From Pedobacter cryoconitis (GTDB lineage: Bacteria > Bacteroidota > Bacteroidia > Sphingobacteriales > Sphingobacteriaceae): a stretch of DNA of 64,000 nucleotides. The stretch lies in assembly GCF_014200595.1 (NCBI RefSeq), contig NZ_JACHCG010000007.1:62001-126000 (forward strand). The letters are read 5' to 3'. Below the pieces are notes generated by a model. The model made no database searches, had not been told where the DNA came from, and saw only the letters and a program-made list of their open reading frames with translations. The position numbers were made by a program, and so were the translations under genes. This document shows positions 46,927 to 61,416 of this stretch, piece after piece (positions within the stretch are counted from its first letter, which is position 1; each line of letters opens with the position of its first letter).

Positions 46927-46984
46927 ATTTTGGAAATGCTTAAAATAAAAAAGGGATACAATTTTAAAACTGTATCCCTTTTTG

Positions 46985-47056
46985 TGTCCCTGAAGGGATT
47001 CGAACCCCCATCGTTGGTACCGGAAACCAAAATTCTATCCATTGAACTACAAGGAC
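46985..47056 (-). tRNA. tRNA-Arg (CCG)
   Basis: A complete 72-base cloverleaf on the minus strand: acceptor stem GTCCTTG/CAGGGAC, D arm GTTC/GAAT, anticodon stem TTGGT/ACCAA with loop TTCCGGT (anticodon CCG), T loop TTCGAAT and discriminator A. CCA is not encoded. Confidence 0.95.
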
Positions 47057-47255: not shown

Positions 47256-48146
47256 TTGAAAGTAAAAAATGTACTTGCTTATTTCAAGCAAAGGTTCCCC
47301 CCGGTAAATATGGTATTGTTTGCTATTCTATTTATAAACGTATACTCCATAGCCTCCTATTTTTCTTCCCAGCCCATAAACTTCAGCGTTAAAATTGGTC
47401 TGGGTATCATTGCTTTTATCTCTTTCTTTTTCAGGCTGCGGGTATTCGATGAGGTTAAAGACTATAAAATTGATCAGATCAACCATCCGGACAGAGTATT
47501 GCAATCTGGCCGCGTCACCTTAAACCAGTTATTTCTGCTCTCTGCCATACTCACGGTCTCAGAACTGGTCTGGAGTTACTGGAATGGGCCATTAACCTTA
47601 ATCTGCTGGCTGGTAGCTGTAGGTTATAGTCTATTGATGCGCTATGAGTTTTTCATCGGCTCATTTTTAAGCAAGCGGCTATTGTTATATGCCTGTACCC
47701 ATATGGTGATTATGCCATTTGTGATGGTCTGGATATGGTCTGCATTTAACTCTGATCTGCATCATACGGCATTGTATTTATTAGCGGGTATCAGTTTACT
47801 CTGCGGATTTAGTTTTGAACTTGCCCGTAAAATCCATGCTCCGGCAGCGGAAAGAGAAACCGTAGACTCTTATTCCAAATCTCTGGGCTATGTGACTTCG
47901 ATCGTTTGCGTCTTGTTGGTTTTACTGATCGGTGTAATCGTACAATGCCGGATATTATACACTATCCAATCAAATTTATGGACGTACATCACCATTTGCC
48001 TGTTATACCTGGCGATAGGCTTCCTCTTTATTAAAGTTGTTAAACGGCCGGACGAAAAAAAACTTCGCCTTGCCGAACTGCTGGTCTCTTTATTTATGGT
48101 GATCAGCTATATCTCTGTAATCATTGAAATACATCTCAAATCATGA
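47256..48146 (+). CDS. UbiA-like membrane prenyltransferase
   Basis: The 296-residue membrane protein has about eight hydrophobic helices. A first acidic motif DEVKDYKID (Asp 65, 69, 73) precedes HPDRVLQSGRVT, corresponding to the UbiA motif that binds the magnesium-prenyl diphosphate. The second site is less clear (ELARKIHAPAAERETVDSYSKSLG near 200-225). UbiA enzymes transfer an isoprenoid or related diphosphate-activated group to an acceptor in the membrane. The substrate is unknown. Start is TTG 47256. Its stop overlaps the start of the next gene (ATGA), so it is the first gene of a tight three-gene operon. Confidence 0.75.
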   Translation: MKVKNVLAYFKQRFPPVNMVLFAILFINVYSIASYFSSQPINFSVKIGLGIIAFISFFFRLRVFDEVKDYKIDQINHPDRVLQSGRVTLNQLFLLSAILTVSELVWSYWNGPLTLICWLVAVGYSLLMRYEFFIGSFLSKRLLLYACTHMVIMPFVMVWIWSAFNSDLHHTALYLLAGISLLCGFSFELARKIHAPAAERETVDSYSKSLGYVTSIVCVLLVLLIGVIVQCRILYTIQSNLWTYITICLLYLAIGFLFIKVVKRPDEKKLRLAELLVSLFMVISYISVIIEIHLKS

Positions 48147-50695
48147 TAATCTACCCTGTTAAAAATGTGCCCGGATATACGATCGGAGGTAAAGCAAAAG
48201 GACTGCTTAAATTATTGGAAGCTCAGGTTACTGTACCCGATTTTTTAGTACTCCCTGCGGAGAACTTTGATCCTATCGTTAAAGCAAAGGATGCAACTAC
48301 AGTATCCATATTAGATCAGCTGCTGCGTTTTACACTCAGCAAACCGGAAGAAGAAAAATTACGTCAGATTTTATCCGGATGGGACTTCCCCAACCGGAGT
48401 ATAATTGTCCGTTCTTCAATTGCCGATGAAGATGGAACACATGATGCATTTGCTGGTATCATGAGCTCTTATATGAATCTGAGAAATTATGAGGATGTCA
48501 TTGAAGCCGTAGGAAAATGTGCTGCCAGTGCGTATTCGGCTGAAGCCGTAGCCTACAGACAGTACAAACAATTATCAGCTGTGGCAAGACCAGCGGTAAT
48601 CTTGCAACAGCAGATCGATGCGGACGCCAGTGGGGTTGTTTTTTCAACCTATCCGCAATATCCACAGGAAATGGCTGTTCATGCAGTCTGGGGGCTGGGA
48701 GAGGGCCTGGTTAACGGAGAACTCGACCCTGATGAATTTTATCTTTCCAAAAAAGACGGAACAGTCGTTCATCAAAAGATAGCACTAAAAGATAAACTTT
48801 ATCAGATGCACGATGAAAAAGGTATTCAGCTGCTGGATGTGGAAGAGGATAAACAACAAATACACAGCCTGACCGAAGAACACCTGCGTGAAATATTTAC
48901 GATTTCAACCCGTCTGGAGAAAAGAAACGGTCATCCGCAGGATATAGAATACGTGATCTCCAGGAATAAACTTTACTTCGTTCAATCCCGTCATATTACC
49001 CAGGAAATCCCGGATGTAATTGTCTATGACAATTCAAATATCCAGGAAAGTTATTGTGGGGTAACTACGCCTTTAACTTTCAGCTTCGCTCAGCATGCCT
49101 ACGCAACGGTTTATTTCCAGACTATTATTCTGTTAGCTATTCCTGAGCAGGTCATCACGACTTACACACCTGTTGTCAACAATTTACTCGGACTGGTTCA
49201 GGGCCGAATTTATTATAATATCAATAACTGGTACCGTTGTTTGCAGCTATTTCCTTCTTTTAAACAGAATAAAGAAGATATGGAGCGCATGATGGGGCTG
49301 GAAGAGCCTGTTGACTTTATTACCGATACGGAAAAATCCTTCACTGAAAAACTCAGCATGATCTTTCCAACCTTTTTTAATCTATTAAGGTTGTTCTCTG
49401 CTTTTAGAAAACTAGAGAAAAGTGTAGCTGAATTTCATAGCCACATCACCAAACACTACGAGCGGTTTTACAAATTGCCAGGTGCATTTGCTAATCCTGT
49501 ACAGTTGCTGGAAGAAAAAAATCTGCTGGATAAAGAGCTGATGGGCAACTGGACTACCCCGATTATCAATGATCTGTATGTGATGATGATGAACGGGAAA
49601 GTAAGACGTAAACTACTCAAAGCAGGTATTTTGGATACTGATGAATTTCTAAGCAGGTATTTAGCAGGTAACCAGGAAATCGAAAGTGCCCAACCTGCGA
49701 TATTGATGCAAAAACTTTCTTTAAAAGCGATGGAGCAGGAGGCACTGAAAGCGCTGATTATTCTTTTGCCTGATGATGTGCACATGCAAATTAAAGCGCA
49801 GTTTCCAGCATTTTACAAAGAGGTGGAAGGTTTTATCCATGTCTATGGTGACCGTACTGTAGGAGAGTTAAAACTGGAAACGATTACAATGCGTTTGTCG
49901 CCTAAAATCTTTTATAGTTACCTGCGCAATTATCTGACCACGTCTAACTCTTTTCAAACCTCAGCTTTGTCTCATTTACATGAATCGGCAGTAAAAGATC
50001 TGGAAGAGAAACTTAAAGAGCATTCTGTATTCTTTAAAAAGACAGTCTACAAAAGTCTGGGTAAACTGCAAAAGTCAATTCAATACCGGGAAGCCTTGCG
50101 TTTAGAAAGAACAAGACTTTTCGGGATGTACCGTACTTTATACCTGGCTGCGGGTGAATTATTGAAGGAGAAAAAAGTATTGACGGAGGCACGTGATATC
50201 TTTTATCTGACTCAGAATGAAATAGAAATATTATTACTGGATAAACCAGGATTTGAAATCGCTGGTGTGATAACGGAGCGGATAGCCACATTTGAACAAT
50301 ATAAAAAGGAAGAAGTGGCCGCTCAGGTTACGATCCCGCCTTTACGCAGTACTAAACCAGAGCCCGTAGATGAAGATCCTTCTGTTTTGCGGGGTACAGG
50401 CTGCGTTCCCGGTCAGATTACTGCGGAGATCATTGTAATAGACGGGCCGGATAGCGATTTGGATGTGAGTGGTAAAATTGTTTGTGCTTTACGTACAGAT
50501 CCTGGCTGGGTGGCACTTTTCCCGACTTGCAAAGGCGTACTGATTGAAAAGGGATCTGCTTTATCCCACTCCGTTATTTTGCTGAGAGAATTTGGAATCC
50601 CGGCGATTATCAATATTCCGGGGCTGACCAAAAAGTTAAGCAGCGGGCAACAAATCAGTATGGATGGTTCAACCGGAGAGATTAAATTATTATAA
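48143..50695 (+). CDS. PEP/pyruvate-binding dikinase, rifampin-phosphotransferase-like
   Basis: The 850-residue protein has an ATP-grasp (PPDK_N) domain at about 1-290 (GGKAKGLLKLL, IIVRSSIADEDGTHDAFAGIMSSYMNL, HAVWGLGEGLVNGELDPDEFYL, QDIEYVISRNKLYFVQSRHI). A long helical middle domain opens with SYCGVTTPLTFSF. The C-terminal swivelling phosphohistidine domain has GSALSHSVILLREFGIPAI (His about 809). A PEP-binding TIM barrel is absent, so it resembles rifampin phosphotransferase rather than PEP synthase. It probably phosphorylates a small molecule with the beta-phosphate of ATP. It overlaps the UbiA-like gene by 4 bp. Confidence 0.85.
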   Translation: MIIYPVKNVPGYTIGGKAKGLLKLLEAQVTVPDFLVLPAENFDPIVKAKDATTVSILDQLLRFTLSKPEEEKLRQILSGWDFPNRSIIVRSSIADEDGTHDAFAGIMSSYMNLRNYEDVIEAVGKCAASAYSAEAVAYRQYKQLSAVARPAVILQQQIDADASGVVFSTYPQYPQEMAVHAVWGLGEGLVNGELDPDEFYLSKKDGTVVHQKIALKDKLYQMHDEKGIQLLDVEEDKQQIHSLTEEHLREIFTISTRLEKRNGHPQDIEYVISRNKLYFVQSRHITQEIPDVIVYDNSNIQESYCGVTTPLTFSFAQHAYATVYFQTIILLAIPEQVITTYTPVVNNLLGLVQGRIYYNINNWYRCLQLFPSFKQNKEDMERMMGLEEPVDFITDTEKSFTEKLSMIFPTFFNLLRLFSAFRKLEKSVAEFHSHITKHYERFYKLPGAFANPVQLLEEKNLLDKELMGNWTTPIINDLYVMMMNGKVRRKLLKAGILDTDEFLSRYLAGNQEIESAQPAILMQKLSLKAMEQEALKALIILLPDDVHMQIKAQFPAFYKEVEGFIHVYGDRTVGELKLETITMRLSPKIFYSYLRNYLTTSNSFQTSALSHLHESAVKDLEEKLKEHSVFFKKTVYKSLGKLQKSIQYREALRLERTRLFGMYRTLYLAAGELLKEKKVLTEARDIFYLTQNEIEILLLDKPGFEIAGVITERIATFEQYKKEEVAAQVTIPPLRSTKPEPVDEDPSVLRGTGCVPGQITAEIIVIDGPDSDLDVSGKIVCALRTDPGWVALFPTCKGVLIEKGSALSHSVILLREFGIPAIINIPGLTKKLSSGQQISMDGSTGEIKLL

Positions 50696-50696
50696 A

Positions 50697-51767
50697 ATGG
50701 GCTTAGTCGAACGTATTGTCTATAAAGGCTCCATCCCTGATAGTTTTTTCACTGTACCGGGGAAGATTTATGAAGAATTAACCATTAAATTAACAGAAGA
50801 CAGGGCAATGATTGCTGCCCTGTTCAAATTAGAGGCAGAAAAAAACGAGATCATCATCTATACAGACCATCAGCATATCCGGCTGGTGGGTATATTCCCC
50901 CACAACGAGGACGCTGCTTATTTTGGATTCTGGGAATCTGCTGATGATCTGGCACTCAATATCGAAGCATTCGGACTACTGGAAAGCGATACCAGTGTAA
51001 GGAAGCTGGCTAGTATGACCGGGCCAATCAACTTTAATACTTATAACCGGTACCGCATCCGGGCGGGCAGTTTACCAAGCTGGAACAGATTTGATAGTGA
51101 ACCAGTTAATCCAGTTTATTATTCCTCTCTTCTGGCTCAGGTGAATTTTAAAGAAAAGCTGACCTTCGAAAGCCGGTACATTACCCAAAACACACTTCCG
51201 GTACTTTATGCTGATTACGCAGCCTTAATGGATGAGCAAAGCAAAATTCCTTTTGAAGTGATTGCTTTAAACGAGCAGAGCTGGATGCAATATGAAAAGG
51301 AATTGTTTGAGCTGATTGAAATCGTTTTTAATCAAAATCCTTTTTATAAAGCGATCTCTTTTGAACAGTTCCGCTTGCTGTACGGCACTAAATTCCTGCG
51401 TAAAATCTGCCCTCACAGCTCGGTTATCTTAATAGATCCGCAGAGCGGAAGGCTGGCTGCCATGAGCATTTGTTATCCGGATTATCAGTCCTTGCCTGCA
51501 ACCGCAGATGGCTATGACTTTAACAGGGATTATCCACTGCTGAAAAAGAGAAGATTATTAGGAAAGACAGTTGGGGTGCACCCTGATTTCAGAAGACAGG
51601 GATTAATGAATTATATCTGTACACATTACATCAGGGCGGCGAACCAATATTATGAAGACACTATTTTCTGTTTGATGCGCTCAGACAATTATTCAGTACA
51701 TTTTACTGACCATACACCGTATGAATCAGTAAAATATATCCTGTATGAGAAAGAATTGGTTAGTTAA
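50697..51767 (+). CDS. GNAT-like acetyltransferase domain protein, function unknown
   Basis: The 356-residue product starts at ATG 50697, one base after the previous stop; an in-frame start at 50664 would overlap the dikinase gene. The N-terminal 200 residues resemble no family I know. The C-terminal third looks like a GNAT fold: GRLAAMSICYPDY, then KTVGVHPDFRRQGLMNYICTHYIRAA as the acetyl-CoA loop, and a final DNYSVHFTDHTPYESVKYILYEKEL. It may acylate the pathway product or its precursor. It is the last gene of the plus operon and overlaps the convergent kinase gene by 8 bp. Confidence 0.65.
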   Translation: MGLVERIVYKGSIPDSFFTVPGKIYEELTIKLTEDRAMIAALFKLEAEKNEIIIYTDHQHIRLVGIFPHNEDAAYFGFWESADDLALNIEAFGLLESDTSVRKLASMTGPINFNTYNRYRIRAGSLPSWNRFDSEPVNPVYYSSLLAQVNFKEKLTFESRYITQNTLPVLYADYAALMDEQSKIPFEVIALNEQSWMQYEKELFELIEIVFNQNPFYKAISFEQFRLLYGTKFLRKICPHSSVILIDPQSGRLAAMSICYPDYQSLPATADGYDFNRDYPLLKKRRLLGKTVGVHPDFRRQGLMNYICTHYIRAANQYYEDTIFCLMRSDNYSVHFTDHTPYESVKYILYEKELVS

Positions 51768-52920
51768 GGCTGTGTCCTGAAATCGCGTCAAAAAAGCTAT
51801 TCACTACGCGGGGGAGAAATGGATAAGGGCTCACACTGTGGCCCATCATATACAAACCCACGCGGTGGATACCAAAATCTAAAGTTGCCATATACAGCTC
51901 CTGATGAAAAGAGGGAGCTGAATTATATTTTCCTGTTAGCCTGGCCAGTTCTTCCCGGTAATATTCAGTATACGCATAACGCTGATCATACCTGTCCTGA
52001 TCCAGAATAAAGCATAAGAATTCTGCCAGATCATACTGAGGGATGTGGAAGGTCGCAAGTTCCCAGTCATATAAACAAAATTCGATCTCACCGTTTTGAG
52101 TTTTAAAGCAACTGTTTCTTGGATTAAAGTCGTTATGGACCAGGGTTTTCGGTAGCTTTTCCAGTTGTTGCCAGTAATTTGGGATTTCCTGTATAGCGTT
52201 GCGCATGGTTTTTACCCTTAAAGGATCATAAAGCTCCGGGAACTTATCAGCAGCATTGTTTAATAAAGCATTCCATAAAGGAAGCAAGTCTGTCATTTGC
52301 TGTAAAGAAGGGGCATCTTTCCATATTTCAAGGTCTACATTTTCCACTTTATTCAACATCTTGCTATGCCAGGCTGCCATCTGCTTTAACGCAGATTTGA
52401 TATGCTGATCGCTCCATTTTTCAGGCGCCATGACTGTGTTCAGCAAATCCACATCATCCAGATATTCCATTAAGATGATGTAAATGTTCTCCTGTTCATT
52501 GGTATACAGGCCGTAAATGACCGGCGTGAATAATGGATGCAGCTTTTTATAAATCTCCTGCTCTTTTAAATGGGTATAATAAAAGCCTGTTAAATGCTTA
52601 AACTGTTCGTAAACACTATTGAGCTCGCCTCCGCATAATTGCGAAAGCATATTCAGCATATTCACAATTTCCTGACCATGAGGTTTGATTTTCATGACCA
52701 TTCTCTTGCTTTGCGGCAATCCATTGAGCGTGTAATTGACTTCCAGGCCAAAATGACCAATGGTGCTTTCTGTTTGCGTAGCGGTAAGGGCTACCAATAT
52801 ACTGGCTGAATTATCTACGTCCAGCAAGGTAATGTCCTGCACAGCGATAGTCTGGTCAGGAAACTGGTCTTGCATGATTTGCTGAACAAAGGTGGTGTTA
52901 AGATAATCGGTGGTTTTCAT
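51760..52920 (-). CDS. APH-family small-molecule kinase
   Basis: The 386-residue protein has the aminoglycoside-phosphotransferase/choline-kinase fold. Features are ILMEYLDDVDLLN in the hinge region (near 150), the catalytic loop LVHNDFNPRNSCF (Asp near 260) and the metal-binding YDWELATFHIPQYDLAEFLCFIL (Asp near 280). Members phosphorylate hydroxyl groups of small molecules such as choline, homoserine or antibiotics. Within this cluster it likely acts on a pathway intermediate, but that is inference. It is last in a four-gene operon, 5 bp after the BtaA-like gene. Confidence 0.82.
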   Translation of the reverse strand: MKTTDYLNTTFVQQIMQDQFPDQTIAVQDITLLDVDNSASILVALTATQTESTIGHFGLEVNYTLNGLPQSKRMVMKIKPHGQEIVNMLNMLSQLCGGELNSVYEQFKHLTGFYYTHLKEQEIYKKLHPLFTPVIYGLYTNEQENIYIILMEYLDDVDLLNTVMAPEKWSDQHIKSALKQMAAWHSKMLNKVENVDLEIWKDAPSLQQMTDLLPLWNALLNNAADKFPELYDPLRVKTMRNAIQEIPNYWQQLEKLPKTLVHNDFNPRNSCFKTQNGEIEFCLYDWELATFHIPQYDLAEFLCFILDQDRYDQRYAYTEYYREELARLTGKYNSAPSFHQELYMATLDFGIHRVGLYMMGHSVSPYPFLPRVVNSFFDAISGHSLN

Positions 52921-52925
52921 GGTCT

Positions 52926-54035
52926 TTAGGTTAGATGTAATGACATAACCGGAACAAACTGTATTTGTACTTTATTCTTGAAGTAAAAACAGCTTTCCTG
53001 TGATAGATTTTGACTTTCCAGTTTGATCCGGTTTGCTGATGGAAAGAAATTCTCTCCCTGGATATTAAGTAAGTTCCAGAAGATCAGCTGTAAATCGCGC
53101 TCCGGATGTTTAGCCAGAGACAAACAGACTTCCTGGAATTCTTCATGACTGATGTATTCAAAAATATTAGACAGACTGGCTTTTGTGATCTTCAAACCGG
53201 GTGCTGATAAAAGATATGCTATTGCTTCTCCCTGGATAACCTGCAACCTGTCCATGTTTTCTCTCAGCTTGCTATAATTTTCTCTTCTATAACATGGAGG
53301 CAGCACCTGATCTGGAAGATCTTGCAGACCAAAAAAGATAAAACGGAAATAGAAGTTATCTTTTAATAAGCTTGAACTTGCCTGCAAAAGAAGGCGTTGA
53401 TAAAAGACTATTCCACCCGATTCATCCACATGTTTTAATAATTTAGGATCTCTGCCATTGCTCAGGTTTTCATCGCTGTAATAAGTGATAAATGTTTGCT
53501 TGAAACTGCTTTTATCCAATTTTTCAACGAAGAATTTGTATTGTTCCTCAATTGTATCAAACGTAATTAGTTGATGAATCAGCTCTTGCTGCTCCTGGCT
53601 GAGCGACTGATGAAATCCCATCATGAATTTCTCCAGTTTTCCTGAAAGCAGCAGTCCTCCGGGATTTTCTTCCAGAAAAGCTGCCCAGAAAGCCTGATCT
53701 GCTGTGGGTAAAGTAGGTAAAATCCGTTGTTTCGCTTCTTTTACAGCTGTTTCTCCTGCTAACCCCAGTAAATCATGGTAAAGCTCATAATCGAAGTTCA
53801 GGATGATGTGCTGTTTGAGCAGCAGCAGCTTGTTTTGAACAGGATTTAAATCGGCAGCAGTAACACTTGCCGGATCCTTCAGCAGCATATTTAAAGCATT
53901 ACAACCTGCCGAAGTAATGACCAGTAAATGATCATTTGTACTGATCTTAAGCGATCTGTAAAGTGTTTGACTATCTTCCCACACCAGCGAATAACGGATG
54001 CGGTCAAGGTCCAGGTTATAAAACTCTGAGTTCAT
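52926..54035 (-). CDS. DUF3419 / BtaA-like SAM:3-amino-3-carboxypropyl transferase
   Basis: The 369-residue protein carries DUF3419 landmarks: RIRYSLVWEDSQTLYRSL at the N-terminus, LVITSAGCNALNMLLKDPASVTAADLNPVQNKLLLLKQHII (near 38-80, SAM-binding Rossmann core), and a C-terminal NIFEYISHEEFQEV. BtaA moves the 3-amino-3-carboxypropyl group of SAM to diacylglycerol, the first step of betaine-lipid synthesis. No BtaB-type N-methyltransferase lies nearby, so the product is unlikely to be the usual trimethylated lipid. It overlaps the upstream ligase gene by 20 bp. Confidence 0.83.
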   Translation of the reverse strand: MNSEFYNLDLDRIRYSLVWEDSQTLYRSLKISTNDHLLVITSAGCNALNMLLKDPASVTAADLNPVQNKLLLLKQHIILNFDYELYHDLLGLAGETAVKEAKQRILPTLPTADQAFWAAFLEENPGGLLLSGKLEKFMMGFHQSLSQEQQELIHQLITFDTIEEQYKFFVEKLDKSSFKQTFITYYSDENLSNGRDPKLLKHVDESGGIVFYQRLLLQASSSLLKDNFYFRFIFFGLQDLPDQVLPPCYRRENYSKLRENMDRLQVIQGEAIAYLLSAPGLKITKASLSNIFEYISHEEFQEVCLSLAKHPERDLQLIFWNLLNIQGENFFPSANRIKLESQNLSQESCFYFKNKVQIQFVPVMSLHLT

Positions 54036-55449
54036 TTATTTTGTGGTATAAAATTTTAGAATGATGTCTGTTATCAACCTGAATTTCGGTCTGAAACTGT
54101 ACACTGTTAATTAACCCGGCAGGGAAGTTTTTGGCTAAAATCCGTTCTGCTTCTTCCTGCGTTATAGTACCCTGAATAAAAATATCAAAGCCATCCTCAG
54201 CAGCTATTGCAGCTACCTGGACAATCTGGTGATGCAGGGTAAGTAAATGTTCGATCTGGTAATGTTGTATACCCTGATGTGCTTTTTCATTTCCTATTCT
54301 GGCGGTGAGATAAAGTTCTTTATCGGCCGACAGATAACCGATATCACCTGTTCTGAGCCAGCCGTCCTGATGCGAAGTGGCTACATGCGCACCTTTGACC
54401 TCTATTTCGCCCGAATTAAATGATCCGGCAGCAGTATGTACCGTTGCAGCTTCATTAATCCTGAGTTCCAATGTTTCTACCGGCTTTCCTACACCATAGC
54501 CGTTAATTGGGTTTTTAGCTGTTCCGTTTATTTTTCTTACCGCGATAGGCTCTGCTTCGGAGGAACCATAAATAATATGAAATTCTGCTTCAGGAAAATA
54601 AAGACGGAGTTCGGGCAGAAGATTCTCAGGTACGGGAGAGCCTCCGGCACCAATTTGCATCACCTTTGGGAAAGATTGCGGATGTGCTTTCAAATAAGCA
54701 AGGATAGTCTTAAAATAAAACACATTGCCCATTAATGTCCCAATATGCTGAGCCGACAGTTGCCGGATGATGTTTTCAGCTTTTAACTGGCTCATTTGAA
54801 ATCCCGGAATAGCAGGCACTACCGTAGTAATTCCTGCTGCAATATTATGCAGGATCACATTAGGAAATATGGGGAAATCACGCAGGTTTACTTGTGGTGG
54901 AAATACTTTTTTGAGAATCTGGTGTTGCGCAGCAATTACGCGGTGACTTCTGAGCACACTCTTTGGTTCTCCGGTTGTACCTGAACTAAAAGTAACCAGT
55001 GCAGGCTGATCCGGGTTTACTAAAACAGCTTCCCAATCAGTTTCTCTGTTGCTTTTCTGTTTTAGAAAAAGGCATTGAATACCCGCTGCTGCTAATTCAG
55101 TTCCCAATTGCTGGTGCATTTGCTCTTCCGCAATGATCACATTTATTTTTTGTGATTTCAATAGTTTAAACAGCGCAGGCAGATCTGATCTGGCAGGAGG
55201 CAGCACCGGGATTGCGCCAATACTTTGTATAGCCAGCAATGCGCTGATAGAAACAGGACTTACAGCGATAGCCAGTAAAACAGAATCACCGGGCAGCACA
55301 TGCTGCTGTAGTAAATACCGGTAATTGGAGATATTTTGCAATAGCTCCTGATTGGTAATTGGCGGCTCCTGTGGATTAGCAGGGATAATTAGCTCCCGGT
55401 TTCCTGGTCTGGTGAGCGCGGTATGGATAACGTTGTAGAAATTGATCAC
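54016..55449 (-). CDS. AMP-dependent acyl/aryl ligase (ANL superfamily)
   Basis: The 477-residue protein has ANL motifs: the P-loop VTFSSGTTGEPKSVLRSHR (near 155), IYGSSEAEPIAV (A5, near 295), WLRTGDIGYLSADKELYLTARIGN (A7-A8, near 365) and a C-terminal lobe ending DNRHHSKILYHKINEL with the A10 Lys. It activates a carboxylic acid as the acyl-adenylate, then passes it to CoA or another thiol. No carrier-protein gene is visible in the cluster. It overlaps the genes on both sides (4 and 20 bp), so translation is probably coupled. Confidence 0.85.
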   Translation of the reverse strand: MINFYNVIHTALTRPGNRELIIPANPQEPPITNQELLQNISNYRYLLQQHVLPGDSVLLAIAVSPVSISALLAIQSIGAIPVLPPARSDLPALFKLLKSQKINVIIAEEQMHQQLGTELAAAGIQCLFLKQKSNRETDWEAVLVNPDQPALVTFSSGTTGEPKSVLRSHRVIAAQHQILKKVFPPQVNLRDFPIFPNVILHNIAAGITTVVPAIPGFQMSQLKAENIIRQLSAQHIGTLMGNVFYFKTILAYLKAHPQSFPKVMQIGAGGSPVPENLLPELRLYFPEAEFHIIYGSSEAEPIAVRKINGTAKNPINGYGVGKPVETLELRINEAATVHTAAGSFNSGEIEVKGAHVATSHQDGWLRTGDIGYLSADKELYLTARIGNEKAHQGIQHYQIEHLLTLHHQIVQVAAIAAEDGFDIFIQGTITQEEAERILAKNFPAGLINSVQFQTEIQVDNRHHSKILYHKINELRVL

Positions 55450-56630
55450 AGGGCAGAGGTACTTAGTGAAAGTTCAGGGTTTTCGAAATTGTGCTGTAAA
55501 GCATAATCATACAGTTCTTCGAAAGTGTTTTGAATATCCGGTTCAGGAATATGCAGAATGAGCTTTCGCAGCGGAGCAGCATCAAAGTTATAAGAGGTCG
55601 TATTCAGATAACGTGAAAGCCATTTTCCGGCTCTTTTATAATACCATTCTTCCAGCAGGTTCATGTTTTCGGGAGTTGAATCCACGAGTTCACATTCAAG
55701 GCCCAGTCTGTGGATAGAATGTTTGATCAGATAGGCATTGCTCAGTGGTGCTGAATTTACAATACTGAGCTGTTTAACATCATCCCGGCGGAATACCGCT
55801 AAAATCGTTTTGGCAACATAATCAACCGGAACAATATTCAAAGTGCTTTTATGGTCACCCATGATCCGGATTTTTTTAATATCATGCTCTTTGTGGCGTT
55901 GTATGCCCTTATTGATAATTCTGCCTACTTCGTAAAATACATTGAACAGGGGCAGGTAGTATAAAGGTGCATCTAACAATCTGCCGCAAATCACCGAAGG
56001 ACGCAGAATCTGCCAGGTGATCTGATTGTCTTCACAATGTTTAATAACCTGGTACTCGGCCATTGCCTTGTAAAACTCATAATGATTCCGGTAAGCGGAC
56101 AGGCTGCTGAAAGGTAATAGCTCTCCGCCTGACCCAAAGCGACGGTAATTACTATCAATTAATCCAGTTTGTATACCACATGAAAATGCAGAACTGATAA
56201 AGATGAATTTGTGCGGTATATGTTTCAGCTGTTCCATTAACTCCAGCGTAGTTAAGTAGTTGAAATCATGGACGTCTTGTAAAGCTGAGTCGGCCGTATT
56301 TAAGTTGGTGATCGCTGCAATATGGATCACATGAAGATAGTCACCCAATTTTGACTTCAATAGCGGACTTTTCTTCAGGTCTCTTAAATCAGAATCAATA
56401 ACCTCAATAAATGATAGCAACTCTTCTACAGGATAAACATCCAGATAGGCTGGTTTAAACGGATTTGATAATAAAGAACTGATCCGCTCACTGGCACTTT
56501 CTTTGGCACCAGACCTGACAACGAGAAATAACCTGCCATTTCTTGTCCCGCTGGCATATTCGGCTAATAATTCATACAGTACATGACGGCCAAGTATGCC
56601 GGTAACGCCAGTAATCAGTAAATTTTCCAT
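55446..56630 (-). CDS. Thioester-reductase-like SDR protein (NAD_binding_4 type)
   Basis: The 394-residue extended SDR protein has the cofactor motif LLITGVTGILGRHVLYELL (4-22), the region VIHIAAITNLNTADSAL, the Ser-rich FISSAFSCGI (near 145) and the catalytic Tyr and Lys in HYEFYKAMAEY (near 188). It resembles thioester-reductase or fatty-acyl-CoA-reductase domains that turn acyl thioesters into aldehydes or alcohols. Next to the AMP ligase this suggests activation followed by reduction of an acid. It is first in the minus operon, with a good promoter about 60 bp upstream. Confidence 0.82.
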   Translation of the reverse strand: MENLLITGVTGILGRHVLYELLAEYASGTRNGRLFLVVRSGAKESASERISSLLSNPFKPAYLDVYPVEELLSFIEVIDSDLRDLKKSPLLKSKLGDYLHVIHIAAITNLNTADSALQDVHDFNYLTTLELMEQLKHIPHKFIFISSAFSCGIQTGLIDSNYRRFGSGGELLPFSSLSAYRNHYEFYKAMAEYQVIKHCEDNQITWQILRPSVICGRLLDAPLYYLPLFNVFYEVGRIINKGIQRHKEHDIKKIRIMGDHKSTLNIVPVDYVAKTILAVFRRDDVKQLSIVNSAPLSNAYLIKHSIHRLGLECELVDSTPENMNLLEEWYYKRAGKWLSRYLNTTSYNFDAAPLRKLILHIPEPDIQNTFEELYDYALQHNFENPELSLSTSAL

Positions 56631-57043
56631 AGATGATATTTGATAGATAGGTTGTAATTGTTCAATCGCTATTCAGTTAACTAGCTGCTATCCAAATTTA
56701 TTTATCTAATACTGCTGGTAAATAGATGATTTGATATTTACTATGTACTTTTTGATTTTATTATGGGTGTAACACTTTCTTTAAAGAGATATTTTGTGTG
56801 ATTTATATTCTTTTTCAGTTGAAATATGTAATCACATGCGGGTATGAGATTTATAGTGAAATTAGTTCTGTGATGATGAATTAAAGGAGTTAGAACATCT
56901 AATTCGATTTTACAGAAAAAATCTATTTTTTAGTAAAGATAACAGCGCATCCATTTTTGTTTAATTTAATATTTTTAATAAAACTTTCTAATCATAACCT
57001 AGTCCGTGGCCTTCATCAGGTACGTGCTGAATATCAAAGCCGC
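56631..57043. promoter_or_regulatory. 413-bp divergent regulatory region between the cluster and the AraC gene
   Basis: This AT-rich spacer holds the promoter of the minus operon at its left end. I find no terminator and no credible small gene. The plus-strand frame entering the AraC gene is open from 56957 but reads unlike the family before ATG 57044. AraC-type operators may lie here, but no clear repeat is seen. Confidence 0.5.
56693..56722 (-). promoter_or_regulatory. Promoter of the minus-strand cluster operon (TTTA-N18-TAAATTTG)
   Basis: On the minus strand the -7 box at 56693-56700 is an exact match and the -33 box at 56719-56722 matches three of four bases, with 18 bp between. The leader would be about 55 bases. 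Confidence 0.55.
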
Positions 57044-57925
57044 ATGAAAAACGAATATTACAAATATTTGTGTGTGAGTGAGGAGGATGCTAACTGGGGC
57101 CTGTATGTTTTATACGTTGGCTATACCAGTGTCGCTGCCCATGCTCAATATCCACAGGAATATTATCCATCGCACCATTATTTTACCTGGAAATCAGGTC
57201 GTATACTCGATGAGTATCAAATTTTGTACATTACCCGTGGTGAGGGTTATTTTGAATCGGACAGCCATAAGCAAAAGGTAACCGCCGGCACAATAATAAT
57301 TCTGTTCCCTGGCGAGAAACACCGGTATATACCTGATCCGGATATTGGATGGGATGAATACTGGATTGGGATCAGGGGCAGTATTATTGATAACCATGTA
57401 CATCACAAGTTTTTTAACCGGGAGAACCCCTGTATCAATATAGGGGTCAATGAAAAGGTGGTCGATCTTTTTAATCTGATCATCGATAAAACCAGGGGTA
57501 AAAATAAAGAAGACCAGCCCATGATGTCGGGTGTTGCTTTACATCTGCTGGGAATACTTTATTATATGGTCAAACAGAAAAGTCAGGAAAGTGAACAGAA
57601 AGATTTGATTATTAACCAGGCGAGGGACTTGTTCAGTTCTAATATCTCCAAAGATTTTTCTCCTAAAATGGCTGCGGACCAATTGAAAATTGGGTACTCT
57701 TTATTCCGCAAACTCTTTAAGAATTATACCGGTTTATCACCTGGACAGTATTTTATCCAGGTAAAAATAGAAAAAGCTAAAAACCTGCTGGAAGATCAAA
57801 GTTTATCTATCAAAGAAATTGCCTATGACCTGAAATTCGACTCTTGTTTTTACTTCTCCAAATTATTCAAGCAGAAAACCGGCATGAGCCCAACCATCTA
57901 TAGAAAGAAGGCAGATACCTGCTAA
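57044..57925 (+). CDS. AraC family transcriptional regulator
   Basis: The 293-residue protein has an N-terminal cupin-type effector domain (YQILYITRGEGYFESDSHKQKVTAGTIIILFPGEKHRYIPDPDIGWDEYWIGIRG) and a C-terminal double helix-turn-helix (FSPKMAADQLKIGYSLFRKLFKNYTGLSPGQYFIQVKIEKAKNLLEDQSLSIKEIAYDLKFDSCFYFSKLFKQKTGMSP), the AraC signature. Its effector is unknown. I chose ATG 57044 (MKNEYYKYLCVSEEDANW). It is divergent to the ligase/reductase operon across a 413-bp spacer and may control it, though a remote sugar locus is equally possible. Its stop overlaps the Ku gene by 4 bp. Confidence 0.9.
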   Translation: MKNEYYKYLCVSEEDANWGLYVLYVGYTSVAAHAQYPQEYYPSHHYFTWKSGRILDEYQILYITRGEGYFESDSHKQKVTAGTIIILFPGEKHRYIPDPDIGWDEYWIGIRGSIIDNHVHHKFFNRENPCINIGVNEKVVDLFNLIIDKTRGKNKEDQPMMSGVALHLLGILYYMVKQKSQESEQKDLIINQARDLFSSNISKDFSPKMAADQLKIGYSLFRKLFKNYTGLSPGQYFIQVKIEKAKNLLEDQSLSIKEIAYDLKFDSCFYFSKLFKQKTGMSPTIYRKKADTC

Positions 57926-58692
57926 GCTCCTTTTCTGCCTTCCAGGCTTTGCATTAGCTGGCTGTACAGATCATCATTCGTATCTTCCCGGGGTTTCAAT
58001 TTTTTTACAGTAGCTCTTTTGCCCCTGGCTTTCGCCTTGATAATTTTCAAAAGTTCTTTACTGTATTCATCTTTGAAACCCCTGATGTCGAATGCTGAAC
58101 TATACTGTTTAATCAGTGCCATGCCCACTTCCAGCTCCTTTTTAGTGATAGTATCGGTTTCGGGGATCTTAAGTTCTTCGCCAGACCTGATTTCTTCAGC
58201 GAACCTGATTTTTGTGACTACCAGAATATCATTTAAAGGATGGATGATACATAAATTCTCCGTATTCCTCAATACAAACCGGGCCACGCCGGCTTTTTTA
58301 GATTTCACTAAAGCTTTCAATAATAAAGCATAAGCTTTTTTACCCTGTTTCTCTGGCTGGGCATAATAAGAAGTCTCATAATAGATAGGATTGATTTCCT
58401 GTAAATCCACAAAATTCTCCAGTGAGATCATCTTGCTTTTATCCGGAGCCGCATCTTCAAAATCCTGTTCATCGAGTACTACATAATTATCATTCAGCAG
58501 ATAACCTTTTACAATTTTATCAAAAGGGACTTCTTTTCTTGTTTTTTCATTGATGCGCTGAAACTTGATCCTGGAATGATCTTTACTGTCCAGCATATCT
58601 AAATCAAGATGACTCTGCTGTACAGCAGAGAAAAGTTTAACCGGGATATTTACCAATCCAAATCCAATAGCTCCATTCCAAAGTGATCTCAT
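57922..58692 (-). CDS. ku: Ku protein (non-homologous end joining)
   Basis: The 256-residue protein is a typical bacterial Ku: MRSLWNGAIGFGLVNIPVKLFSAVQ at the start, then INEKTRKEVPFDKIVKGYLLNDNYVVLDEQDFE and a core ending near residue 225, with a short charged tail (KARGKRATVKKLKPRED). Ku forms a homodimeric ring on DNA ends and recruits LigD. It lies divergent to ligD with about 120 bp between the start codons, forming a complete two-gene NHEJ module. Confidence 0.96.
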   Translation of the reverse strand: MRSLWNGAIGFGLVNIPVKLFSAVQQSHLDLDMLDSKDHSRIKFQRINEKTRKEVPFDKIVKGYLLNDNYVVLDEQDFEDAAPDKSKMISLENFVDLQEINPIYYETSYYAQPEKQGKKAYALLLKALVKSKKAGVARFVLRNTENLCIIHPLNDILVVTKIRFAEEIRSGEELKIPETDTITKKELEVGMALIKQYSSAFDIRGFKDEYSKELLKIIKAKARGKRATVKKLKPREDTNDDLYSQLMQSLEGRKGA

Positions 58693-58812
58693 CCTAAATG
58701 CTTTAATTGTTAATCTAACAACGCGCCATTTCTTTTGTTTTCTGTTCCTGAAAACTTTGAAACTTTCTTATTGTTATCATCCGGAATCAGGTCATCATTT
58801 AAAATTTTAGCG

Positions 58813-61416
58813 ATGAGTTTAACAGCCTATAAAAAGAAACGGTCTTTCAAGCAGACACCCGAACCCAAAGGTGGTAAAGGAAGTGGAAAAGAATTGCGCT
58901 TTGTCATTCAGAAACATGATGCTTCACATCTTCATTATGATTTCAGATTGGAAATGGGCGGAGTATTGAAAAGCTGGGCTGTTCCCAAAGGGCCTTCCAC
59001 TGATCCTGAAGTTAAACGGCTTGCGATGATGGTTGAAGATCATCCTTACGATTACAAAGATTTTGAAGGTAGTATTCCTAAAGGAGAGTACGGTGGGGGG
59101 ACAGTTATTGTTTGGGATGAGGGGACTTATGAGCCTGAAGAGCCGGTAAATGGCACTATAGAAGACCAGGATAGAAACCTCAGACATCAGCTGCATAGCG
59201 GTAAAATCAGTTTTATTTTGCATGGCAAAAAGCTGAAAGGATCTTTTGCACTGGTCAAAACTCATGGAATGGGTGAAAATAGCTGGCTTTTGATCAAGCA
59301 TAAAGATAAATATGCCAAAAGCGAAAATATCTTGCTGAAAGATAAATCGGTGATTTCCAGAAAGACGATTGAACAAATGGAAAAGAAACCAGTTCAGGTT
59401 TATGGAAAAAAGACGATTAAACCTAAAAAGCCTGAAACGGTTGAACCCAAGAAGATTAGAACTGTAAAAACTCCTTTTTACGATCAGGTAAAACCTATGC
59501 TGGCGACGTTGGTAAATAAGCCATTCGATGAAGAAGGATGGTTATATGAAGTTAAATGGGATGGTTACCGGGCGGTTGCCTTTATGAATAAAGGGACTGT
59601 AGCATTCCAGTCCCGGAACAATAAATCTTTTCAGGAGAAGTTTTATCCGATTTACCAGGCATTGGAAGAATGGAATATTAATGCAATTGTAGATGGTGAG
59701 GTTGTTGTCGTAGATCAAAAAGGAACAGCTAGTTTCGGAGCTTTACAGAATTGGCATAGTAACCAGGGCGGGGAGTTGTTGTACTATGTTTTTGATATTT
59801 TGTGGTATGATGGGTATGACCTTACAGTTTTACCTCTAACACAAAGAAAGGCGATACTGACTCAGCTGATCCCGGAAAACTCCCCGGTAAGGCTCAGTAA
59901 AGATTTTGAAACTTCAGGAATAGAATTTCTGGCAGCTGCAAAAAAAGCAGGGCTGGAAGGGATCGTTGCTAAAAGAAAAGACAGTTTGTACGTGGTTGGT
60001 GAACGCACCAGTGATTGGCTCAAAATTAAAGCTGCCAGACGTCAGGAAGTCGTGATTGGCGGGTATACAAAGAATGCGGATACCAGCAAACCATTCAGTT
60101 CCTTGCTGGTTGGTGTGTTTGATGACGGGAAATTTATTTATACCGGAAAGATTGGGACGGGATTTAGTGTGGAGATGCAGCAGCAATTGTTAACCCGGTT
60201 TGAACCTTTGCTGATTGCTAAACCAGCTTTTACAGACAAGCCCGATTTTAATAAAGCTAACCCGTTCAGAGCTGGTTCGGCAAAGGCGAAGGCATTCTGG
60301 TTAAAACCGGAGCTGATCTGTGAAGTCAATTTTACAGAAATGACCGCAGATGGTTTGATGCGGCACCCATCTTTTGCAGGCATGCGGGAAGATAAAAACG
60401 CTGAAGAAGTTGTTCTTGAAAAAGAAGCAGATACGCCGGCTGTTTTGACTGAAACTGATAAAGGTTTGACTAAGCTCAAAGGAATGAAAGAATTACTGAA
60501 TCCAAAAGAAGAAACTCAGGTGAAAAAAGTAAACGGGCATGCACTGGAATTTACTAACCTGAATAAGTTATACTGGCCTGTTGAAAAAATAACGAAACGT
60601 GAGCTGATCAATTATTATGAGCAGATGGCGTCATTTATATTACCTTATATGAAAGACCGGCCTTTGTCTTTAAACCGTTATCCAAACGGAATTACAGCAC
60701 AGAGTTTCTATCAGAAAGATGTGACCGGAAAAGTTCCTGACTGGATCAAAACTTATCTTTATCATGCCGAAGGAGATGATTCAGATAAGCATTTCATGGT
60801 AGGGGATGATAAAGCAACCTTATTGTACACGGCCGGGCTTGGGTGTATTGAAGTTCATCCCTGGAGCAGTACTATTAAAAAACCTAATTATCCCACCTGG
60901 TGTATTATTGATCTTGATCCGGGTAAAAATTCTTTTCAGCAGGTAATCGAAGCGGCGCAGGTCACTAAAACTATTCTGGATGATATGGGTGTCCCTTGTT
61001 ATTGTAAAACCAGCGGTTCTACAGGTTTACATATCTATATTCCCTTAGGAAACAAATATACTTATGAACAGAGCAAGGAGTTTGCGCGGATTATTGTAAC
61101 GCTGGTTAATCGCGAAATACCGTCATATACAAGTCTGGAACGTGCGGTTTCTAAACGGAGAGGAAAAATGTACCTGGATTTTTTACAGAACCGCCCTCAG
61201 GCTACCATAGCCGCTCCGTATTCGCTGCGTCCAAAGCCTGGCGCTACGGTTTCTATGCCATTACACTGGGAAGAAGTGAAAAAGGGATTGGAAATGAAAG
61301 ATTTTACAATTTACAATGCGCTGTCAAGGGTTAAAGAAACCGGTGATATTTTTAAACCCGTACTAGGTAAAGGGATCGATCTTAAGAAAGTTATAACAGG
61401 AATGCAATTGAAATAA
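58813..61416 (+). CDS. ligD: DNA ligase D (phosphoesterase-ligase-polymerase)
   Basis: The 867-residue multidomain enzyme has the order PE, ligase, polymerase. PE domain: HDASHLHYDFRLEMGGVLKSWAVPKG (near 35-60). ATP-dependent ligase: YEVKWDGYRA with the nucleotide-accepting Lys about 248, then DGEVVV, GLEGIVAKRK and WLKIKAARRQEVVIGGY. Polymerase/primase domain: from about 570, LEFTNLNKLYWPVEKITKRELINYY, and DLDPG as the metal site. I chose ATG 58813 (MSLTAYKKKRSF), because 26 residues from the upstream ATG at 58735 fit no LigD. It repairs double-strand breaks with Ku. Confidence 0.96.
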   Translation: MSLTAYKKKRSFKQTPEPKGGKGSGKELRFVIQKHDASHLHYDFRLEMGGVLKSWAVPKGPSTDPEVKRLAMMVEDHPYDYKDFEGSIPKGEYGGGTVIVWDEGTYEPEEPVNGTIEDQDRNLRHQLHSGKISFILHGKKLKGSFALVKTHGMGENSWLLIKHKDKYAKSENILLKDKSVISRKTIEQMEKKPVQVYGKKTIKPKKPETVEPKKIRTVKTPFYDQVKPMLATLVNKPFDEEGWLYEVKWDGYRAVAFMNKGTVAFQSRNNKSFQEKFYPIYQALEEWNINAIVDGEVVVVDQKGTASFGALQNWHSNQGGELLYYVFDILWYDGYDLTVLPLTQRKAILTQLIPENSPVRLSKDFETSGIEFLAAAKKAGLEGIVAKRKDSLYVVGERTSDWLKIKAARRQEVVIGGYTKNADTSKPFSSLLVGVFDDGKFIYTGKIGTGFSVEMQQQLLTRFEPLLIAKPAFTDKPDFNKANPFRAGSAKAKAFWLKPELICEVNFTEMTADGLMRHPSFAGMREDKNAEEVVLEKEADTPAVLTETDKGLTKLKGMKELLNPKEETQVKKVNGHALEFTNLNKLYWPVEKITKRELINYYEQMASFILPYMKDRPLSLNRYPNGITAQSFYQKDVTGKVPDWIKTYLYHAEGDDSDKHFMVGDDKATLLYTAGLGCIEVHPWSSTIKKPNYPTWCIIDLDPGKNSFQQVIEAAQVTKTILDDMGVPCYCKTSGSTGLHIYIPLGNKYTYEQSKEFARIIVTLVNREIPSYTSLERAVSKRRGKMYLDFLQNRPQATIAAPYSLRPKPGATVSMPLHWEEVKKGLEMKDFTIYNALSRVKETGDIFKPVLGKGIDLKKVITGMQLK

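Follow-up and report, generated by a model that had tools for sequence, protein, structure and literature searches.

A conserved six-gene cluster of Pedobacter and other bacteria with a non-BtaA DUF3419 protein, a candidate pathway to an aminolipid

Introduction

Do seven tightly packed genes of Pedobacter cryoconitis belong to one pathway, and if so, what could it make? The genes, g1 to g7, lie in a 64,000-nucleotide stretch of contig NZ_JACHCG010000007.1 (positions 62,001 to 126,000), here called the window. They are predicted to encode a UbiA-type membrane transferase (g1), a dikinase (g2), a GNAT-like acyltransferase (g3), an APH-type kinase (g4), a DUF3419 protein (g5), an acyl-adenylating enzyme (g6) and a thioester reductase (g7). 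An initial annotation took them for a seven-gene biosynthetic system, with a modified lipid or a homoserine-derived metabolite as its possible product. Pfam agrees with the families that it named, though only weakly for g3. The comparisons below support a single biosynthetic system and tie it to transfer of the 3-amino-3-carboxypropyl group of S-adenosylmethionine (SAM) and, probably, to lipids. We found no description of this cluster or its pathway in the literature, including papers on DUF3419, with most subscription journals lying outside the search; the part of PMC12419801 available to us is not about this cluster.

Results and discussion

Six of the seven genes form one system

A scan of GTDB with one genome per species yielded 53 loci selected by similarity to g5, including a high-similarity subset of 38 in which g5 is 37–58% identical. 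All six genes from g1 to g6 lay within 7.4–10.4 kb in 33 of these 38 loci, convergent in 27 and on one strand in six. The exceptions were two loci without g4 (L018 and L045), two cut by contig ends (L041 and L050) and one with only g4 and g5 (L038); L040 and L050 apparently duplicate the contigs of L011 and L012. Among the hosts are Pedobacter, Hymenobacter, Pontibacter, Arsenicibacter, Fibrella, Fibrivirga and Gramella, as well as metagenome-assembled genomes (MAGs) of Saprospiraceae, Nonlabens and Flavobacteriales. Within the family of the window's host, g5 had matches in eight of 201 genomes, that host included. Two of the others were close (45% and 43% identity), and in both g3 faces g4, g5 and g6 as it does in the window.

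Since these loci had been picked by g5, a search with the UbiA protein alone, independent of that choice, was added. Cluster-type UbiA proteins (E 1e-12) were present in 10 of 395 Bacteroidota genomes, spread over six family groups. A DUF3419 match reaching 384 bits or more was found in each of the ten as well, and genes for DUF3419, UbiA, dikinase and g3 occurred together in all ten UbiA neighbourhoods (the window and L101–L109). DUF3419 matches of any strength were found in 46 genomes, of which the window's genome and 19 regions were covered; the remaining 26 genomes score below 172 bits, which is the range of BtaB-linked proteins.

The initial annotation had named rare co-occurrence as the outcome that would speak against one system, and both searches found the opposite. 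With g1 to g6 found together in so many loci, their grouping is not due to chance, and it is close to certain from these gene neighbourhoods that they are one system. This does not extend to g7, which had no match in any of the 53 loci; 24 whole genomes yielded a single homologue (34% identity), which is unlinked, and the protein database three close relatives (77–93% identity). A link between the cluster and the g7 homologue of Arsenicibacter was considered and rejected, as a reading of the gene listing showed no cluster gene in the surrounding 17 kb. By this comparison g7 is a local addition outside the conserved core, and the proposed system is reduced from seven genes to six. Its scattered occurrence is best read as that of a sporadically distributed, mobile or portable pathway.

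g5 is a distinct relative of BtaA

Two main forms of the cluster were counted: 39 window-like loci (type A) and 15 with a one-direction operon (type B). MAG contigs among them can be misbinned. g5 carries the DUF3419 domain clearly (Table 1). BtaA, which we take to be a member of the same family, is not known to need a dikinase or a UbiA protein. If g5 were an ordinary BtaA and the other genes its helpers, the locus would serve the synthesis of the betaine lipid diacylglyceryl-trimethylhomoserine (DGTS) or of plain diacylglyceryl-homoserine, the latter being the product of BtaA according to the part of PMC3972451 that was available. Consistent with this idea, residues Y15, W19, E20, S42, G44, N46, D62 and Q67 are common to 16 type-A, 18 type-B or type-C and 12 BtaB-side rows of the alignment.

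Neighbourhood, tree and motif, however, all set g5 apart. A BtaB-like gene, so called by its position and a methyltransferase by Pfam, adjoins the DUF3419 gene in 11 loci (L061–L065, L067, L114 and L116–L119) and also lies within L069. Among the 85 sequence pieces compared, it stands beside no DUF3419 gene of type A, B or C, and the sole match in these loci is weak (52 bits) and eight genes away (L106). In a DUF3419 tree of 53 rows, nine of them ungrouped and some on long branches, the nine BtaB-linked proteins and the 16 type-A proteins (a thinned set) fall on separate sides of branches with support of 100/100. With L058 set aside, the B and C rows form a group of their own (99/94). Cluster proteins carry the motif LSNIFEY, compared with LLDxxDW on the BtaB side, and L058 is intermediate (LSNALDW). 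The common residues may bind SAM, and the LSNIFEY/LLDxxDW region may touch the acceptor.

We therefore rejected g5 as a BtaA on these three grounds, which show it, at the level of sequence, to be a distinct relative. The cluster resembles the BtaA/BtaB pathway in its DUF3419 protein and in the conserved residues thought to lie on the SAM side, but differs in having no BtaB-like neighbour, a separate clade, another C-terminal motif and five partner genes. Synthesis of DGTS or diacylglyceryl-homoserine is accordingly an improbable role for the locus. The nearest solved match of g5 was marginal (2yx1, E 0.024, presumably Trm5-type) and was not used.

The UbiA-type protein and the archaeal comparison

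The membrane prenyl transfer proposed by the initial annotation is doubtful as worded. In 39 sequences, g1 keeps the first Asp motif, RxxDExKDxxxD (R62, D65, E66, K68, D69 and D73). The second is lost, so that g1 lacks the pair of Asp-rich motifs of canonical UbiA prenyltransferases. Its best solved relative is digeranylgeranylglyceryl phosphate (DGGGP) synthase (41.8 bits), followed by chlorophyll synthase. With both it shares the UbiA family and the first Asp motif, but it has ExxRK (E188, R191 and K192) in place of the second. The product of g1 cannot be read from its sequence. The ebo gene cluster, which is reportedly an accessory cluster with a UbiA-like gene (EboC), offers a likeness of another kind; against the EboC model g1 reaches only 24 bits (cut-off 250).

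With DGGGP synthase as nearest solved relative, g1 might be thought to act as that enzyme on geranylgeranylglyceryl phosphate (GGGP), giving an archaeal-type ether lipid in bacteria. Some clusters also contain CdsA-like, CDP-alcohol transferase and phosphatidylserine (PS) decarboxylase genes, a set that mirrors the archaeal phospholipid route. The window's genome, however, yielded no GGGP synthase (PF01884), and only four of the ten cluster genomes have a strong match (G263, G353, G215 and G335), although the family cut-off is passed in 138 of 395 genomes. Because of this genome content, GGGP is an unlikely acceptor and was rejected as such. Given also the lost second Asp motif, we regard archaeal-type ether lipid synthesis as very improbable.

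Catalytic residues of the dikinase, kinase and ligase

The dikinase, the kinase and the ligase are shown by their alignments to keep their catalytic residues. g2 has an ATP-grasp domain at its N-terminus (PPDK_N, residues 14–287), a middle domain and a His swivel domain at its C-terminus (PEP-utilizers, residues 777–845), with His809 invariant in 46 of 46 sequences. Domain order and catalytic His are those of dikinases of the rifampin phosphotransferase (RPH)/PigC type, the order being presumably that of rifampin phosphotransferase itself. The pyruvate-binding domain (PEP-utilizers_C) that phosphoenolpyruvate (PEP) synthase and PPDK would require was not found in g2. Unlike these dikinases, g2 scores far under the RPH and PigC cut-offs, with 244 bits against the PigC model (cut-off 1300) and 228 against RedH (cut-off 1350). 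Among the NCBIfam models it best matches PRK06241.2-4, labelled 'phosphoenolpyruvate synthase' (644.7 bits, cut-off 1063).

The kinase g4 keeps the HND and DWE motifs, with H262, N263, D264 and D285 present in 32/32 sequences. In g6 the C-terminal Lys465 is found in 42/42 sequences, and the match to PRK09274 reaches 161 bits (cut-off 478). Homologues of g3 occur in most related clusters.

Related clusters carry different kinases and reductases

Type-A loci contain an APH kinase in 36 of 39 cases by reading frames (the copy in L035 was found by tblastn). None of the 39 has HMG-CoA reductase (HMGR) or the type-B membrane protein, and in 22 a transporter of the MMPL family lies beside the cluster. 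Conversely, all 15 type-B loci contain HMGR and the membrane protein, a candidate CTP-kinase-like protein, and none contains APH. Their usual order is HMGR, UbiA, dikinase, DUF3419, membrane protein, GNAT and ligase; in L101, L102, L104 and L105 the operon begins with GNAT and ligase, and L017 has other genes interposed. One type-B locus is on a plasmid of the alphaproteobacterium Roseinatronobacter sp. S2, where HMGR is truncated by the end of the record.

Distant forms were found in other Bacteroidota, on the alphaproteobacterial plasmid and in cyanobacterial and archaeal MAGs. They lack APH and carry other candidate kinases. A diacylglycerol kinase (DAGK) gene is present in the archaeal MAG (L058) and lies about 3 kb from UbiA in the cyanobacterial MAG (L060); the DAGK_cat domain was identified in L058, L108 and L110. 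L108 and L109 contain an NAD_binding_4 reductase, DAGK or the membrane protein, and a PS decarboxylase. CTP_transf_1 and CDP-OH_P_transf genes are part of the cluster in L014 and L016. NAD_binding_4 reductases were found in L108, L109 and the window, which is the only type-A locus with a reductase of the kinds searched.

The HMGR of type B raises the question of isoprenoid supply. HMGR was present in 12 of 17 genomes searched. Dxr of the methylerythritol phosphate (MEP) pathway is present in ten of these 12, none of which has a convincing mevalonate-PP decarboxylase. The other two, G353 and G263, have no Dxr but a mevalonate-PP decarboxylase (~160 bits, under the cut-off of 171) together with a second, different HMGR; in other genomes the decarboxylase reaches at most 25 bits. 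The remainder of a mevalonate pathway was thus not found to accompany the type-B HMGR. PF08540, tried as a test for HMG-CoA synthase, gave 0/17 and was set aside because it also missed the mevalonate genomes G353 and G263.

Aligned with solved HMGRs, the type-B copies resemble class I enzymes in their Glu, Lys, Asp and His, for which we assume the same catalytic roles, but differ in the substrate site. In each of the 15 cluster-type copies that were aligned, Glu takes the place of the Ser in the SGN motif, and Ser, Ala, Thr, Val or Met that of the substrate-site Lys; L106 has a Lys one place earlier. We take the changed residues to be the equivalents of human S684 and K735, with a role in binding HMG. 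The copy in L014 scores 350 bits against TIGR00533 (cut-off 442). A role in isoprenoid supply was rejected on gene content and on these changes. HMG-CoA could also be obtained from leucine breakdown, so the changed substrate-site residues weigh more than the missing pathway genes. G196 has a second cluster-type HMGR at a distance from its DUF3419 cluster (L125, 5174–7756), with genes resembling CDP-alcohol phosphatidyltransferases and CTP transferases next to it.

Three DUF3419 loci of other composition were also recorded. L110 (4328–11870) has a DUF3419 protein with PEMT at its N-terminal side, a diaminopimelate-decarboxylase-like (LysA-like) gene, DAGK and a GNAT-like gene; no UbiA or dikinase was found in it, and it is a possible third homoserine-lipid locus. 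L111 (6187–10161) is a row of three genes, for a GNAT protein, a protein resembling acyl-ACP (acyl carrier protein) reductase (163.6 bits, cut-off 449.7) and DUF3419; the 19 kb covered there gave no match to UbiA or the dikinase. On a Rhizobium plasmid (L122, 817–7155), DUF3419 lies beside β-ketoacyl-ACP synthase III (KAS III), an OleD-like reductase, a metallo-β-lactamase (MBL)-fold protein, an F390-synthetase-related ligase and a 368-aa protein.

The likely product is an aminolipid

What, then, could the conserved genes make? We think it somewhat probable that they encode one pathway to an aminolipid or lipid-like metabolite, whose polar part would be the 3-amino-3-carboxypropyl (homoserine) group of SAM. 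A lipid is favoured because the genes that join the cluster or replace its members in relatives are of lipid type: DAGK, PS decarboxylase, CTP_transf_1, CDP-OH_P_transf and MMPL. Of the two products named by the initial annotation, the balance tilts by the same genes from a homoserine-derived metabolite towards a modified lipid. The kinase and reductase genes of the various cluster forms belong to different families, and this swapping of kinases and of thioester reductases in otherwise similar clusters suggests that lipid-alcohol phosphorylation and thioester reduction are among the steps.

The homoserine head group also has a parallel in E. coli, which decarboxylates phosphatidylhomoserine to phosphatidylpropanolamine, as described in the accessible part of PMC12221286. 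In E. coli, free homoserine supplies the head group via PssA, whereas here SAM would do so; decarboxylation to aminopropanol would be the common element. By this analogy, the PS decarboxylase genes of L108 and L109 would suit a homoserine head group, a lipid-bound alpha-amino acid on which such an enzyme could act.

The most likely order of steps, as we infer it, would begin with activation of a long-chain or 3-hydroxy acid by g6 to acyl-AMP or acyl-CoA. In clusters with a reductase (g7 in the window, an HMGR homologue or others elsewhere), the thioester would be reduced to an aldehyde or alcohol. g4 could then phosphorylate a lipid alcohol, and g2 could add or transfer a second phosphoryl group through phospho-histidine. 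With the activated lipid, g1, as kin of the archaeal ether-lipid synthase, may alkylate a membrane acceptor. g5 would attach the aminocarboxypropyl group, and g3 would acylate the amine or a hydroxyl. In the 22 type-A loci that have it, the MMPL-family transporter could export the product. The second PS decarboxylase, encoded within the cluster in L108 and L109, could convert a homoserine head group to 3-aminopropyl.

A different product, which would come from a classical accessory cluster, is a secreted or cell-associated small natural product, namely a prenylated or acylated small molecule that bears the aminocarboxypropyl group of SAM. The sporadic spread noted above (g5 in 8/201 family genomes, cluster-type UbiA in 10/395 of the phylum) would suit it, as would the matches of g2 to PigC and RedH, far under their cut-offs as they are. 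APH kinases, adenylating enzymes and RPH/PigC-type dikinases are found in natural-product pathways, and natural products with aminocarboxypropyl groups are known (PMC10491745, in the part available). Against this stands the lipid type of the genes that join or replace cluster members. Furthermore, no carrier protein, polyketide synthase or nonribosomal peptide synthetase was found among the cluster proteins scanned, the flanks having had no systematic search. We judge a small natural product rather unlikely.

Several observations weigh against the aminolipid pathway as set out. The replacement of g1's second Asp motif by ExxRK is one of them. The GNAT match of g3 is weak (18.4 bits, cut-off 20.7, E 0.0027; 17.6 bits for its homologue in L106), and a profile search found no relative of g3 in the PDB. 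APH-type kinases often take small non-lipid substrates. In the 38 other type-A loci there is no HMGR or g7-like gene (other reductase families were not searched), so that reduction is no fixed step there. The AMP-ligase likewise has no BLAST match in L060 and L108–L111, and acid activation is therefore not universal. As for the type-B membrane protein, the pattern RKxVH...G, read in it by eye, makes it a tentative candidate for a CTP-dependent lipid-alcohol kinase. Among nine such proteins there was one sub-threshold PF01148 match (L057, E 7.8e-4), and kinship with CTP transferases was rejected after an hhalign comparison with a CTP transferase gave no match. The window's genome lacks the MMPL transporter, the best match there reaching 31.9 bits. 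Finally, G335 and G549 each carry a further PS decarboxylase outside the cluster, which makes those of L108 and L109 second copies, and the five other genomes searched have one. The window's genome also has two, neither in this locus, and a second PS decarboxylase is hence not special to these clusters.

A bolder form of the aminolipid pathway is tentative, and we hold it possible but doubtful. In it, a portable pathway of Bacteroidota, Alphaproteobacteria and, judging from MAGs, Cyanobacteria and perhaps archaea would make a new class of bacterial lipid. An acid would be converted to an alcohol and phosphorylated twice, the second time by the dikinase; a UbiA-type joining reaction would be the bacterial counterpart of archaeal ether-lipid logic; and a SAM-derived homoserine cap would follow, decarboxylated to aminopropyl in some lineages. 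The type-B HMGR homologues would then have left the mevalonate pathway to reduce another CoA thioester.

If the aminolipid pathway is real, it would be a second branch of DUF3419 lipid chemistry beside BtaA, the one such chemistry known to us. It would also unite a dikinase, a UbiA protein and an aminocarboxypropyl transferase in a single pathway, a combination that we did not find described. 'Unidentified aminolipids' have been reported for Hymenobacter and Pontibacter, and the pathway could explain some of them. HMGR homologues with a changed substrate site, in hosts without sign of a mevalonate pathway, are candidates for a new reductase activity. As several hosts are named cultured strains, the question of the product is directly testable.

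Locus layout and neighbouring genes

A check of the window confirmed seven intact open reading frames in two tight operons, g1 to g3 and g4 to g7, that meet tail to tail as the initial annotation described (Table 1). Neighbouring genes overlap by 4 bp (g1/g2), 8 bp at their 3' ends (g3/g4), 20 bp (g5/g6) and 4 bp (g6/g7), and g4/g5 are separated by 5 bp. The g2/g3 junction depends on the start of g3: the first ATG (50664) gives an overlap of 32 bp, and the in-frame ATG at 50697 gives a gap of 1 bp. The latter agrees with the gap of 1 bp in the initial annotation and with the start of the homologues' consensus. The cluster has a G+C content of 41.6%, compared with 39.0% in the rest of the window. 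The window's genome measures 6.35 Mb, and the closest named DUF3419 relatives of g5 are from Pedobacter.

Table 1. Positions and domain matches of g1 to g7 in the window
Gene	Predicted product	Position	Strand	Length and domain matches
g1	UbiA-superfamily membrane transferase	47256..48146	+	296 aa, TTG start; Pfam UbiA E 6.9e-15
g2	ATP-dependent dikinase/phosphotransferase	48143..50695	+	850 aa; PPDK_N E 1e-53, PEP-utilizers E 1.3e-18
g3	GNAT-like acyltransferase	50664..51767	+	367 aa (356 aa from ATG 50697); weak Acetyltransf_1 E 0.0027
g4	APH/EcKL-type kinase	51760..52920	-	386 aa; APH E 3.4e-14, EcKL E 7.1e-9
g5	DUF3419 protein, predicted SAM:3-amino-3-carboxypropyl transferase, non-BtaA type	52926..54035	-	369 aa; PF11899 E 3.7e-44
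g6	Acyl-adenylating enzyme, PRK09274-like	54016..55449	-	477 aa, GTG start; AMP-binding E 5.2e-27
g7	Thioester/fatty-acyl reductase	55446..56630	-	394 aa; NAD_binding_4 E 7.6e-26

About 200 bp before the cluster lies a tRNA-Arg gene (anticodon ccg) on the minus strand (46984–47056). An island inserted at this tRNA was considered and rejected, the longest repeat shared with the right side of the cluster being at most 12 bases. A scan for sigma-70-type promoters found 27, with 28.5 expected, and was not used. Divergent from g7 is a gene for an AraC-family regulator (56957–57925), a candidate regulator of the minus-strand operon. It is followed at 57922–61416 by a Ku-like gene adjoining a LigD-like ATP-dependent DNA ligase gene, presumably a bacterial end-joining pair unrelated to the cluster.

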